Positions 2,413 through 64,000 of a DNA stretch of 64,000 nucleotides are shown here, one piece after another. This DNA comes from Vogesella sp. LIG4. GTDB lineage: Bacteria > Pseudomonadota > Gammaproteobacteria > Burkholderiales > Chromobacteriaceae. The position numbers and the translations under genes are program-made. Each line of letters opens with the position of its first letter. Position 1 is the stretch's first letter. The DNA is taken from positions 3,746,548 through 3,810,547 of the forward strand of contig NZ_LT607802.1 of NCBI RefSeq assembly GCF_900090205.1, read 5' to 3'. The notes under the pieces were generated by a model. The model did not search any database and had not been told where the DNA came from. It was given only the letters and a program-made list of their open reading frames with translations.

Positions 2413-4719
2413 TTATTTTTTCATCAGCTTGGCAAACGCCGCCGCCATGGCGCCGCCGCCCTGCTCCTGCTGCGCCTGCTGCCGCGGCTTGCCACCACCG
2501 CGCGGCTCGCTGCGGCCGGCGCCGCTGCGGCTGCTGGTACCCGGCTCGTCGTCCAGGCGCATGGTCAGCGCGATGCGCTTGCGCGGCACGTCCACCTCCA
2601 GCACCTTCACCTTCACCACCTGGCCGGCCTTCACCACCGTGCGCGGGTCGTCCACGTACTTGGTGGACAGCGCCGAGATATGCACCAGGCCGTCCTGGTG
2701 CACGCCGATATCGACGAAGGCGCCGAAGTTGGCCACGTTGGTCACCACGCCTTCCAGCACCATGCCCGGCTGCAGGTCCTTGATGTCCTCCACGCCGTCC
2801 TGGAAGGTGGCGGTTTCGAACGCCGGGCGCGGGTCGCGGCCGGGTTTTTCCAGTTCCTTGAGGATGTCGATCACCGTGGGCAGGCCGAAGCGCTCGTCGG
2901 TGTAGTCGGTGGCGCGCACGCTCTTGATGAAGCTGATGTCACCGATGATGTCCTTCACCGCGCGGCCGGTCTTGCCGACGATGCCTTCCACCACCGGGTA
3001 GGCTTCCGGGTGCACCGAGGAGGCATCCAGCGGGTTGGCTCCGCCCATGATGCGCAGGAAGCCGGCCGCCTGCTCGAAGGTCTTGTCGCCCAGGCGGCTG
3101 ACTTTCAGCAGCTCGCGGCGGCTCTTGAAGGCGCCGTTGGCGTCGCGGTGGGCCACGATGTTGGCCGCAAGCGTGCTGTTGAGGCCGGAGACGCGGGTGA
3201 GCAGCGGCACCGAGGCCATGTTCACGTCCACACCCACCGCGTTCACGCAGTCTTCCACCACCGCGTCCAGGCTGCGCGCCAGCTGGCTCTGGTTCACGTC
3301 GTGCTGGTACTGGCCGACGCCGATGGATTTCGGGTCGATCTTCACCAGCTCGGCCAGCGGGTCCTGCAGGCGGCGGGCGATGGACACCGCGCCGCGCAGG
3401 CTCACGTCCAGATCGGGGAATTCCTTCGCCGCCAGTTCGGAGGCGGAGTACACCGAGGCGCCCGCCTCGCTGACCACGATCTTGTTCATCGGCAGCTGCG
3501 GGAAGGCGCGGATCAGCTCCTGCGCCAGCTTGTCGGTTTCGCGGCTGGCGGTGCCGTTGCCGATGGCGATCAGCTCCACCTTGTGGCGGGTGCACAGCGC
3601 CGCCAGGGTGGCGATGGAGCGGTCCCAGTCGCGGCGCGGCTCATGCGGAAAGATGGTGGTGGTATCCAGCAGCTTGCCGGTGTTGTCCACCACCGCCACC
3701 TTCACGCCGGTGCGCAGGCCCGGGTCCAGGCCCAGGGTGGCGCGCGGGCCGGCCGGCGCGGCCAGCAGCAGGTCCTTGAGGTTGGCCGCAAACACCTTGA
3801 TGGCTTCGGCGTCGGCAGCTTCCTTGATGCGCGACATCAGTTCCAGTTCCAGCGACAGGAATATCTTGGCACGCCAGGTCAGGCGCACGCCGTCCAGCAG
3901 CCACTTGTCGGCGGCACGACCGGCATCCTTGATGCCGAACTGTGCGGCCACCAGCTCCTCGTAGGCGGAGCGCTGCGTCAGCGGGGTATCGTCCGGCTGG
4001 TACTTCAACGCCAGGCTCAGCACGCCCTCGTTACGGCCGCGCAGCAGCGCCAGCGCGCGGTGCGACGGCGTGGTCTTCAGCAGCTCGCGGTGGGCAAAGT
4101 AGTCGGCAAACTTGGCGCCTTCCTGCTCCTTGCCGGCCACCACCGTGGCGGCCAGCTCGGCCTCACCCCACAGCTTGTCGCGCAGGCGGCCCAGCAGCAC
4201 CGCATCCTCGGCAAAACGCTCGATGAGGATGGCGCGGGCACCATCCAGCGCCGCCTTGGTATCGGCCACGCCCTTGTCGGCATCCACGAAGCCTGCGGCC
4301 AACGTTTCCGGGTGCTGCGTCGGGTCGGCCAGCAGGCTGTCGGCCAGCGGCTCCAGCCCCGCTTCACGCGCAATCTGCGCCTTGGTACGGCGCTTGGGCT
4401 TGTACGGCAGGTACAGGTCTTCCAGCGTGGTCTTGTTGTCGGCGCCGTAAATGGCCGCTTCCAGCTGCGGTGTCAGCTTGTCCTGCTCGGCAATGCTCTT
4501 GAGGATGCTGTCGCGGCGGTCGTCCAGCTCGCGCAGGTACACCAGGCGCTCACCGAGCATGCGCAGCTGGGTGTCGTCCAGGCCGCCGGTGGCTTCCTTG
4601 CGGTAGCGGGCGATGAAGGGGATGGTGGCGCCCTCGTCGATCAGGGCAATGGTGGCGCTGACTTGCGCTTCGCGGACATTCAGTTCGGTAGCCAGGCGGC
4701 TGGCGATGCTCTTCAACAT
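2413..4719 (-). CDS. tex: Tex transcription accessory protein, S1 RNA-binding
   Basis: A cytoplasmic nucleic-acid-binding protein of 768 residues, the usual size for Tex. The order of parts matches the family: helical N-terminal Tex region, YqgF/RNase H-like domain starting near 328 ([16 protein letters not shown]), helix-hairpin-helix region near 501-560 ([20 protein letters not shown]), and a C-terminal S1 domain near 645-715 ([20 protein letters not shown]). The last 40 residues are a basic, low-complexity tail rich in G, Q and R. The start at MLKSIASRL matches the conserved Tex N-terminus; the frame is open further upstream but runs into the neighbouring terminator. Two uptake-like 10-mers lie in the coding sequence at 3160 and 3781, and one in reverse at 4294. 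Confidence 0.95.
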
Positions 4720-4798
4720 GCGGCGGGATTCTGTTCGAAAAACGGAAGCCGCTACTGTAACGGCATGCGCTGGAAAAGCAAGCCGCGCGGCGTGTAAA

Positions 4799-4830
4799 AC
4801 ACAAGGCCCGGCATGCGCCGGGCCTTGTGT
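4799..4830 (-). terminator. Terminator after the STAS-like gene
   Basis: A 14-bp perfect stem (ACACAAGGCCCGGC and its complement) with a 4-base ATGC loop, followed on the minus strand by GTTTTAC. It sits 18 bp past the stop of the STAS-like gene and before tex, so the two are probably separate transcripts. Confidence 0.8.
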
Positions 4831-4848
4831 CTGCAAGCATGCAGCGTA

Positions 4849-61716: not shown

Positions 61717-61753
61717 AAAAAGCCGCTGCACGAAGATCGTGCAGCGGCTTTTT
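61717..61753 (-). terminator. astDB terminator (bidirectional form)
   Basis: A 17-bp perfect stem AAAAAGCCGCTGCACGA with an AGA loop and A/T tracts on both sides. It lies 21 bp past the astB stop. Confidence 0.92.
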
Positions 61754-61773
61754 CATGCCAGTCCGGTAGTGAA

Positions 61774-63123
61774 TTACACCAGCTGGAACGGGTACACCGA
61801 GCCCAGGCCCAGAATGCCGGTCAGTTCGTCCAGCGCAGTGCGGCATTCCAGCAGCAGCTGCGGGTCGCCCAGGTCGGCCGGGGCAATGCGATCACGATAA
61901 TGCTTCTCCACCCAAGCATTAAGCGTGCCAAACAGCATGTCGTTCATCATCACCTTCGGATTCACCGCGGCGATCTCGCGCTCGGACAGCGCCACACGCA
62001 GACGCAGGCAGGCCGGGCCGCCGCCGTTCTGCATGCTCTGCTTCAGATCGAACACGCGTACTTCGGCAATCGGGCCACCGCTGTTCACCAGCTTCTGCAG
62101 GTAGGTCCACACGCGCTCGATGTTGCGGCACTCTTCCGGCACCACGATGATCATCTTGCCATCGGCGCGCGACAGCAGCTGGCTGTTGAACAGGTAGCTC
62201 TTCACCGCCTCTTCCACGCTCACTTCCGCCTGCGGCACCTCGATGGAAATGAACTTGCCACCTGCGGCGGCCAGCTTGCGCTCCAGCTCGGCCAGCACAT
62301 CGGCCTGATGCAGGAAGGACTTCTCGTGGTGGAACAGCACGTTGCGGTTGCCAACCGAGATCACGTCGTTGTGGAACACGCCGGCATCGATGGTGGCCGG
62401 GTCCTGCTGCGCGTATACCACGCCCTCTTCCTTCAGGCCGTGCAGACGGGCGATGGCCTGGCTGGCTTCCAGCGTCTGGCGCGCCGGGAAGCGGGCCGGT
62501 GCCGGGTAGCGGCTGTCGAAAGCCGCCGCACCGAATACGAAGAACTCCACGCCGGCGCCATCGTATTCGTGGCAGAAGCGGGTATGGTTGGCCGCACCTT
62601 CGTCACCGAAGTGCATCTGCGCCGGCAGCGCCTCATGCACCGCGAAGCGCGACTCGTCGGCAAACATCGCCTGCAGGATGCGACGGGTGGTCGGATGCTC
62701 GATGGAGCGGTGGAACTTGTTGTTCAGGTTGGCCGGGGTGAAATGCACGCGGCCGTCGGCGGTGTCGCCGGAGGGGCTGACGGTAGCCGCGTTGGCGGTC
62801 CACATGCAGGAAGCCGAGCTGGCGGCGGCCAGGATGGCCGGCGCTTCCTTGGCGGCGCGCTCCACTACCTGTGCGTCGGTGCCACCAAAGCCCAGGCGGC
62901 GCAGGCTGGCCACGTCCGGGCGCTCATGCGGGGCCAGTACGCCCTGCTTGAAGCCCATGTCGTGCAGCGCCTTCATCTTGGCCAGGCCCTGCAGGGCGGC
63001 CAGTTTCGGGTTGGACGCCGCGTTCTGGTTGCCGGTGGAAGCCACGTTGCCGTAGGACAGGCCGCTGTAGTTGTGCGTCGGGCCTACCAGGCCGTCGAAG
63101 TTCACTTCAAATGCGTTGCTCAC
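61774..63123 (-). CDS. astB: N-succinylarginine dihydrolase
   Basis: The second enzyme of the arginine succinyltransferase pathway, splitting succinylarginine to succinylornithine, CO2 and ammonia. A 449-residue protein of the amidinotransferase-like fold. Typical blocks are [21 protein letters not shown] at the N-terminus, [25 protein letters not shown] with the catalytic His, and [12 protein letters not shown] with the catalytic Cys. The start is a GTG that overlaps the astD stop (GTGA), so translation is coupled. The only possible ATG upstream lies inside astD. Confidence 0.95.
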
Positions 63124-64000
63124 AGTACGATCCCCGGAGAAAGTTGAGACGGAACGGTCAGGCTGTCGCATTCCAGCGATGCCACCGGCCAGGCGCAGTA
63201 ATCCGCCGCGTAGTAGGCGCTGGGGCGATGGTTGCCCGAGGCGCCGATGCCGCCGAACGGTGCGGCGCTGGAGGCGCCGGTCAGCGGCTTGTTCCAGTTC
63301 ACCACGCCGGCGCGGCTTTCCAGCAGATAGTGTTCGTATTCGGCACGGTCGTCCGACAGCACGCCGCCGGCCAGGCCGAAGCGGGTGTCGTTGGCGATGT
63401 CGATGGCCTCGTCGAAGGAGGTGTAGCGGATCACCTGCAGCAGCGGGCCGAAGAATTCCTCGTCCGGGCGCTGTGCCGCGGTGCTGTCCACGATGCCGGG
63501 GCTGAGCAGCGCGCCAGTGTCGGACAGGCGCTTCATTTCCAGCAGCAGCTTGCCGCCATTGGCCAGCAGCGTGGCCTGCGCCTTCAGCAGCGCATCGGCA
63601 GCGGCATTGGAAATCACCGAGCCCATGAACGGCTGCGGCTCTTCGTTATACAGACCTACCTTGAGGTTGGCCGCAACCTGCACCAGGCGCGCCACGAAGG
63701 CATCGCCCCACTGCCCTGCCGGCACCAGCAGGCGGCGCGAGCAAGTGCAGCGCTGGCCGGCGGAGATGAAGGCAGACTGGATCACGTGATGCACGGCGGC
63801 ATCCATATCGGCCACCTTGCCGACGATCAGCGGGTTGTTGCCGCCCATTTCCAGCGCCAGGATCTTCTCCGGCTGGCCGGCGAAGTTCTTGTGCAGCAGG
63901 TTGCCGGTAGCGGAGCTGCCGGTGAAGAACAGGCCGTCGATGCCGTGGTGGCCGGCCAGGGCAACGCCGGTATCGCGCGCGCCCTGGGTCAGGTTGATCA
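63120..64000 (-). CDS. astD: N-succinylglutamate 5-semialdehyde dehydrogenase (5' end outside window)
   Basis: The C-terminal part, about 293 residues, of an NAD-dependent aldehyde dehydrogenase; its start lies beyond the right edge. The NAD-fold [14 protein letters not shown], the catalytic Glu in [11 protein letters not shown] and the catalytic Cys in [12 protein letters not shown] are present. The LEMGGNNPL and GQRCTC pattern is that of AstD. It oxidises succinylglutamate semialdehyde to succinylglutamate, the substrate of AstE. It overlaps astB. An uptake-like copy is at 63666. Confidence 0.95.

Follow-up and report, generated by a model that had tools for sequence, protein, structure and literature searches.

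A candidate DNA uptake word in Vogesella sp. LIG4, with related words in sister genera and a ComP-type pilin as its putative receptor

Introduction

What maintains dozens of copies of one ten-base word, on both strands and inside as well as between genes, in a single 64-kb stretch of bacterial chromosome? The stretch in question (hereafter the window) comprises 64,000 nucleotides of Vogesella sp. LIG4 (contig NZ_LT607802.1, positions 3,746,548 to 3,810,547), and the word is GTTGGCCGCA, or TGCGGCCAAC when read on the opposite strand. A preliminary description of the window proposed that this organism has an uptake-type signal of its own, comparable to the DNA uptake sequence (DUS) of the Neisseriaceae, and named three observations that would speak against the idea: a frequency explained by codon and oligonucleotide composition, confinement to this region, and a lack of pilus and competence genes. 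Following up that proposal, we consider it very probable that GTTGGCCGCA, in its extended form AG-GTTGGCCGCA, serves Vogesella as a DNA uptake signal read by a ComP-type pilin.

A 2013 survey saw no obvious DUS in five genomes from the genera Laribacter, Lutiella, Pseudogulbenkiania and Chromobacterium (PMC3630211), and one of the dialects described below may stand among the over-represented 10-mers tabulated there, unrecognised as a DUS. A 12-mer survey of the Neisseriaceae in 2024 flagged new candidates by their CTG (PMC11316581), and the passages of PMC10715097 and PMC3868556 considered here mention no such word outside that family. Among the matches listed from the open PMC literature, there was no DUS report for Vogesella, its sister genera, Crenobacter or the Chromobacteriaceae, no account of uptake being tested in Vogesella and, for the bare 10-mers, no related title. 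In the literature that we found, uptake words whose receptor has been demonstrated by experiment are described only in the Neisseriaceae, and the structure of the pilin-DNA complex is given as unresolved (PMC12061091).

Results

Abundance and sharpness of the word

No other 10-mer of the window is as frequent as this word, which has 51 exact copies, 25 of them as GTTGGCCGCA and 26 as TGCGGCCAAC; the runner-up among 10-mers that do not overlap it, CCAGCAGCAG, reaches 18. The preliminary description had counted 49 copies, and 48 of its 49 coordinates prove exact; the copy it placed at 25328 begins at 25327, and two copies, at 1014 (plus strand) and 5422 (minus strand), had escaped it.

Copies of GTTGGCCGCA in the window, all exact matches:
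1014..1023, plus strand, copy missed by the preliminary description
3160..3169, plus strand, copy
3781..3790, plus strand, copy
4294..4303, minus strand, copy
5422..5431, minus strand, copy missed by the preliminary description
6539..6548, plus strand, copy
7044..7053, plus strand, copy
10259..10268, minus strand, copy
10688..10697, minus strand, copy
10940..10949, plus strand, copy
12586..12595, minus strand, copy
14109..14118, minus strand, copy
14756..14765, plus strand, copy
15364..15373, plus strand, copy
16614..16623, minus strand, left half of 20-bp palindrome 16614-16633
16624..16633, plus strand, right half of 20-bp palindrome 16614-16633
19665..19674, minus strand, left arm of inverted pair 19665-19690
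19681..19690, plus strand, right arm of inverted pair 19665-19690
22207..22216, plus strand, copy
22786..22795, minus strand, copy
25037..25046, minus strand, copy
25327..25336, plus strand, copy given as 25328 in the preliminary description
25509..25518, minus strand, copy
26593..26602, minus strand, copy
28033..28042, plus strand, copy
30697..30706, plus strand, copy
32911..32920, plus strand, copy
34227..34236, minus strand, copy
37170..37179, minus strand, copy
37726..37735, minus strand, copy
38636..38645, minus strand, copy
42666..42675, plus strand, copy
43223..43232, plus strand, copy
43478..43487, minus strand, left half of 20-bp palindrome 43478-43497
43488..43497, plus strand, right half of 20-bp palindrome 43478-43497
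44438..44447, minus strand, copy
45209..45218, minus strand, copy
46097..46106, plus strand, copy
47986..47995, minus strand, copy
49820..49829, minus strand, copy
50060..50069, plus strand, copy
51942..51951, minus strand, copy
52869..52878, minus strand, copy
53226..53235, minus strand, copy
53949..53958, minus strand, copy
54417..54426, plus strand, copy
57129..57138, minus strand, copy
57373..57382, plus strand, copy
57700..57709, plus strand, copy
62587..62596, plus strand, copy
63666..63675, plus strand, copy

Our genome sample consists of 464 kb, namely the window and 20 evenly spaced 20-kb pieces of the same genome. It contains 341 copies of GTTGGCCGCA against 3.6 expected under an order-3 Markov model, a 94-fold excess that bears out the strong over-representation first claimed for the window. 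The 30 one-base variants occur between 0 and 24 times each, most of them close to expectation and the most frequent being GTTGGCCGCG (24 against 5.3 expected), and the signal is therefore a sharp 10-mer. The noncoding stretches hold 117 copies against 0.92 expected (order-2 Markov).

An origin of the word in codon usage or in a recurrent peptide is ruled out by synonymous shuffling and by the spread of copies over six, albeit unequally used, reading frames. When synonymous codons were shuffled inside each of the 354 called genes, keeping protein and codon usage, 100 shuffles gave a mean of 7.35 copies and a maximum of 17, against 223 genic copies. The 221 copies wholly inside genes (the difference from 223 probably reflects overlapping called genes) fall into the six frames as 89, 60, 40, 13, 10 and 9, and the favoured frames encode x-A-A-N or x-L-A-A; all frames being used, though unequally, the word appears to follow whichever frames tolerate it, with no single peptide as the driver. 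By both the Markov background and the shuffle, then, the excess lies beyond codon and oligonucleotide expectation.

Placement in the chromosome

Across the chromosome of 4,147,242 bp there are 2,895 copies (0.70 per kb), 1,458 on one strand and 1,437 on the other, and a backwards-word control occurs 8 times (4 + 4). The balanced orientations described for the window, 25 to 26 in our count, thus hold for the chromosome as a whole. Genes were called with a simple codon-usage script, which makes coding fractions rough: by this measure 17 of the 51 window copies and 120 of the 341 sampled copies are not wholly within a gene, in DNA that is 16% and 17% noncoding, respectively, and the density in the sample is 1.46 per kb in noncoding DNA against 0.58 per kb in genes. 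Of the 118 intergenic copies in gaps flanked by genes on both sides, convergent gaps (11.3 kb in total) hold 41, tandem gaps (49.3 kb) 69 and divergent gaps (14.7 kb) 8; convergent gaps are dense and divergent gaps sparse, so the copies gather behind gene ends.

Neighbouring copies no more than 60 bp apart form 35 pairs among the 341 sampled copies, all of them inverted and none direct, where random placement would give 6.1 of each kind. The most frequent pair is a perfect 20-bp palindrome, TGCGGCCAACGTTGGCCGCA, which occurs 11 times in the sample, including 16614-16633 and 43478-43497 in the window. Beyond the ten bases themselves, single intergenic copies (n=68) are preceded by A at -3 in 69%, A at -2 in 68% and G at -1 in 69% of cases, a trend that is weaker in single genic copies (n=203; 44%, 51% and 43%). 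The extended 12-mer is AG-GTTGGCCGCA, close to the earlier guess of a 12-base consensus beginning with AC or AG, of which the second form stands.

Dialects in the family

We surveyed 61 genomes of the GTDB family, 13 from Vogesella (genus g1) and 48 from nine other genera. GTTGGCCGCA is present in 1,871-2,895 copies in all 13 Vogesella genomes, among them that of Vogesella oryzae (G055; 2,273 copies, 1,110/1,163 by strand, controls 7/6), and in 8-58 copies in all 48 of the others. Ten of these 48, from six genera, bear GTTGGCCGAA or GTTGGCCGAG instead (238-2,223 copies), GTTGGCCGAA having been found in samples of g6, g7, g9 and g10 and in genome G010 of g2, and GTTGGCCGAG in g5. Counts of GTTGGCCGAR are high in both genomes of g5 (1,668; 2,017), both of g6 (744; 2,223), the one genome of g7 (1,258), the one of g9 (1,872), all three of g10 (238, 942, 1,152) and one of ten in g2 (G010, 1,386). 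They are low in all 13 Vogesella genomes (24-59) and in g3 (19/19), g4 (4/4), g8 (6/6) and the other nine of g2, where the maximum is 154. Crenobacter is represented by G034 and G035 (g5) and G036 (g6), as judged from identical proteins, and g3 is probably Chromobacterium.

Genomes with at least 238 copies of either form, 23 in all, are referred to below as word-bearing and the other 38 as word-less; two of the former, G045 and G047, are 80% and 84% complete. Compared as sequences, GTTGGCCGCA, GTTGGCCGAA and GTTGGCCGAG are dialects of one word family, consisting of GTTGGCCG followed by CA, AA or AG. Far from being confined to the region of the window, the word is therefore genome-wide and genus-wide in Vogesella and takes altered forms in sister genera.

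Two marginal cases deserve mention. G010 is the lone high genome of g2, an Aquitalea-type genus in which the nine others have 26-64 copies of GTTGGCCGAR, and it is either a lone survivor of the word or a genome placed in the wrong genus. G040 (154 copies) and G043 (130) of g8, which we placed among the word-less genomes, show a small excess over their controls (34 and 28). No dominant word emerged from 20 kb sampled in G043, and the excess may be what is left of a fading uptake word.

Outside the family, 384 sampled genomes of the order, read by eye, showed no comparable excess of GTTGGCCG: the highest count was 736 (control 533) and the highest ratio above 100 copies was 438/133. A weak excess in G271 and G410 (family f48) was discarded, as one 20-kb piece of each contained no such word; the piece from G410 (C1:1-20000) has a repeated 12-mer resembling GTCGGGGGTGAC, with 5 copies in 20 kb and about 0 expected.

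Known dialects served as controls of the method. The classical 10-mer GCCGTCTGAA, counted in 399 genomes, reaches 247-4,285 copies in 10 genomes of g52 (family f43, the Neisseriaceae) and 2-14 copies in 15 genomes of the window's family (f1), the next highest count elsewhere being 68 (G311, control 23). Applied to 40-90 kb each of Neisseriaceae genomes, the word finder recovered AT-DUS from G408 and simDUS/kingDUS from both G428 and G213. One member of that family, G145 (25% GC), has a ComP-like pilin; no uptake word proved over-represented in 80 kb of its sequence, which makes it a possible instance of uptake-word loss.

A candidate receptor

The genome encodes a candidate ComP-type minor pilin at G000:C1:1559002-1559418, adjoining pilMNOPQ-aroK-aroB, as well as ComEC (1.9e-57) and DprA (1.2e-77). 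The kinds of homologue that the preliminary description had tied its proposal to are thus present, from the ComP-type pilin and the PilMNOPQ operon to the competence proteins. In a phmmer search of the PDB the pilin matches ComP entries first (2m3k 2.5e-4, 5hz7 1.3e-3, 2nba 0.036), and a profile of 21 word-bearing orthologues matches the ComP structures at 8.9e-18 to 6.6e-17 over the globular part, against 0.15 for Pseudomonas aeruginosa PilE. The AlphaFold model of the candidate (pLDDT 90.9) has two Foldseek matches below 1e-3, both Neisseria ComP, and VIA-align places ComP 5hz7 first, with the other two ComP entries interspersed among other pilins. Searched against the Neisseriaceae, the orthologue profile gives a best match of 2.9e-23 or better in 13 of 13 genomes, and one of six such matches inspected is a ComP sequence; in the reverse check, Neisseria ComP ranks the same pilin first among the compared stretches of the Vogesella genome. 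By the Pfam family PF16732, the candidate scores 23.8 bits in its own genome, below the gathering cut-off of 27.3, and orthologues in word-bearing sister genera score above it (for example G046 64.8, G036 55.8 and G038 53.6 bits).

The candidate pilin is found in all 23 word-bearing genomes at an E-value of 1.8e-12 or better. The 38 word-less genomes include 29 with a weaker match at 1e-5, the best of them at 2.0e-12, such that the E ranges meet, and 9 with none. Sites were compared with 27 of these 29 word-less sequences (G009 and G041 were left out). Of the 23 word-bearing sequences, 21 have K at site 59, G045 has R and G010 has T, which gives K or R in 22. Neither residue occurs there in any of the 27 word-less relatives, nine of which have H and three a gap, and all four Neisseriaceae sequences of the tree have one or the other. 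A further possible mark of the word, the N-x-D motif of the beta1-beta2 loop, was considered and set aside: it is present in 22 of 23 word-bearing sequences, but as five of the 27 word-less ones, all from g3, have it too, it carries little weight.

Other features of the window

A 1,185-codon open frame on the minus strand (29335-32892) lies antisense to glnS (29347-31032, plus strand) and ushA (31042-32742, plus strand). Along its whole length the translation has a match in Vogesella oryzae, with 68% in the best segment, most probably as a side effect of the genes on the plus strand and of the high GC. Pfam identifies the alpha and beta subunits of a respiratory nitrate reductase at 37881-43220, and a nitrate/nitrite-sensing chemoreceptor at 34322-36301.

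Discussion

Overall, the proposal that this organism has an uptake-type signal of its own is supported, and none of the three objections that the preliminary description had anticipated was borne out. We envisage a general pathway in which the ComP-type minor pilin of the type IV pilus would bind the word on outside DNA, retraction of the pilus through PilQ would pull the bound DNA in, and ComEC and DprA would hand it on to recombination. DNA bearing the word would be taken up better, and in consequence chance copies would spread and broken copies would be replaced. Such preferential uptake would account for a sharp word with few near-misses, and for its preference for sites free of coding constraint, chiefly behind gene ends. 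The binding face itself, of which we are less sure, might be formed by the basic alpha1-beta1 loop (the region of K59) together with the beta1-beta2 loop, since the second disulfide that shapes the DD region in Neisseria is missing here.

We also lean, with only modest confidence, slightly reduced by the N-x-D counts, towards a broader model, wherein the Vogesella/Crenobacter family harbours a second radiation of dialects, one that has a common origin with the Neisseriaceae DUS and is recognised by a DD-less ComP through its alpha1-beta1 and beta1-beta2 loops. If this is true, the word-and-receptor system is older than the Neisseriaceae, CTG is not an invariant core, and the word disappeared along with the basic face of ComP from Chromobacterium, most Aquitalea and others.

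At the same time, three observations weigh against an uptake signal read by a ComP-type pilin. In the eight published DUS dialects positions +6 to +8 read CTG and position +10 is A (PMC3630211; CTG also in PMC12061091), whereas CCG replaces CTG in GTTGGCCGCA, GTTGGCCGAA and GTTGGCCGAG, and for want of that core the words fall outside the published dialect set. The candidate pilin lacks the second disulfide of Neisseria ComP, only the C122/C131 pair being conserved. Finally, the association of word status with K or R at site 59 is suggestive, and it is limited by the tree of these sequences, which has three changes of word status and offers only one to three independent comparisons.

Four alternatives must be weighed. 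The one that survives best retains the uptake word and changes its reader, which would be another surface protein, for example the PF16732 pilin at G000:C1:2153936-2154196 or that at 4146282-4146533, leaving the ComP-like pilin an ordinary one. Both of these pilins exceed the PF16732 cut-off (72.6 and 53.8 bits), which the ComP candidate does not, and both were first taken for ComP. That assignment was dropped, as the PDB entries listed for them, 18 and 19 below 1e-3, comprise general pilins and P. aeruginosa PilE but none for ComP; PF16732 was likewise dropped as a test for the presence of ComP, for pilins above its cut-off occur in 60 of the 61 family genomes, with or without the word. Of the three pilins only the ComP candidate matches ComP structures by sequence (the fold was compared for this candidate only), and we regard a different reader as improbable.

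A second alternative, which we judge very unlikely, is a HIP1-like word kept by methylation or repair bias, or a restriction-modification site with the palindrome GGCC inside it. Very high density and a palindromic centre would suit such a word; GTTGGCCGCA itself, however, is no palindrome, and one-base variants that keep GGCC are at most slightly enriched (ATTGGCCGCA 4 against 1.7 expected, GGTGGCCGCA 3 against 12.1). Moreover, HIP1 is not known to prefer gene ends or inverted pairs, and both preferences are strong for GTTGGCCGCA.

Even less credible is a chromosome-architecture word (KOPS, Chi or Ter-linked) that FtsK, RecBCD or some nucleoid protein would recognise. Architecture words reach hundreds to thousands of copies and are strand-biased along the replichores, and ours is indeed frequent, short and sharp; yet by GC skew the sampled copies divide into 176 leading-strand and 165 lagging-strand ones, with the chromosome total equally balanced, and the copies are densest in convergent gaps. 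The idea of a dispersed terminator or repetitive extragenic palindromic (REP)-like hairpin element can practically be dismissed, for although inverted pairs fold strongly (six of the 35 were folded, z -2.4 to -5.6) and intergenic copies lie near gene ends, the pairs account for only about 70 of 341 copies, over-representation is not limited to paired copies, the 203 single copies within genes share the same core, flanks beyond about four bases carry too little information for a larger unit, and terminator use is a known by-product of DUS.

An uptake signal read by a ComP-type pilin would extend the principle of self-recognition in Neisseria to a second bacterial family with its own dialects. 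The three related words of that family, each with its matching ComP variants, would offer natural word-receptor pairs for studying how a pilin reads DNA, and the age, gain and loss of uptake words would become traceable over the 61 genomes. Vogesella and its relatives are environmental bacteria, and they might thus serve as a model for selective DNA uptake in such organisms.

Comparison with known uptake systems

The Pasteurellaceae possess an uptake signal sequence (USS) with the core AAGTGCGGT, a genome-wide uptake signal of the kind proposed here for the Vogesella word, and TGCGGCCAAC happens to share its TGCGG. That string is absent from the sister dialects (TTCGGCCAAC, CTCGGCCAAC), however, and the bacteria are different ones. 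The USS receptor is itself only predicted (PMC12616744).

The closest relative of known structure to the candidate pilin is Neisseria ComP, in which the DD region is held by the disulfides C76-C125 and C118-C139, and DNA is bound mainly through the DD region and the beta1-beta2 loop (PMC4906244). The candidate shares with the ComP structures (PDB 5hz7, 2m3k, 2nba) an alpha1-beta1 motif with K and W-P-x-L-P and a C-terminal disulfide pair. It differs in that none of the 23 word-bearing family sequences has a cysteine in the beta1 strand and in that the loop between the C-terminal cysteines is short, so that there is no DD region in the published sense; it also has an extra C10 and C44, both in the N-terminal helix. 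Among the Neisseriaceae, the best ComP match in G213, which carries king/simDUS, has two cysteines only and none in beta1. The two-disulfide DD region may accordingly, to judge by this sequence, not be universal among DUS-bearing genomes.

The closest parallel is the DUS of the Neisseriaceae. Like the DUS, the Vogesella word is present in thousands of copies at about one per kb, shows no strand preference, has AG before the 10-mer as do most of the published dialects considered, forms inverted pairs, varies as dialects between genera and shares its genome with a ComP-type pilin. DUS prefer gene ends and inverted pairs, and the Vogesella word does both. Dyads of DUS have been described, and the king and sim words given, in PMC7371117, and the eik word is given in PMC12061091. 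The word differs from the DUS in lying in another family (Vogesella, Crenobacter and others) and at +10, where A is kept in GTTGGCCGCA and GTTGGCCGAA and replaced by G in GTTGGCCGAG (g5).

The preliminary description had held that the known dialects do not match the word, a statement that must be revised once the AG prefix is included and the words are aligned in register. Six reference dialects were compared, among them AG-simDUS AGGCTGCCTGAA, AG-kingDUS AGGCAGCCTGAA, AT-DUS ATGCCGTCTGAA and mucDUS. The sister word AGGTTGGCCGAA matches AG-simDUS at 9 of 12 positions and the Vogesella word AGGTTGGCCGCA at 8 of 12. For random 12-mers of about 60% GC, the chance of such agreement with any of the six dialects is 0.19% for 9/12 and 1.1% for 8/12 in register, and 0.7% and 5.2%, respectively, when shifts and both strands are allowed. 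These matches make it likely that word and receptor share common descent with the DUS system of the Neisseriaceae.

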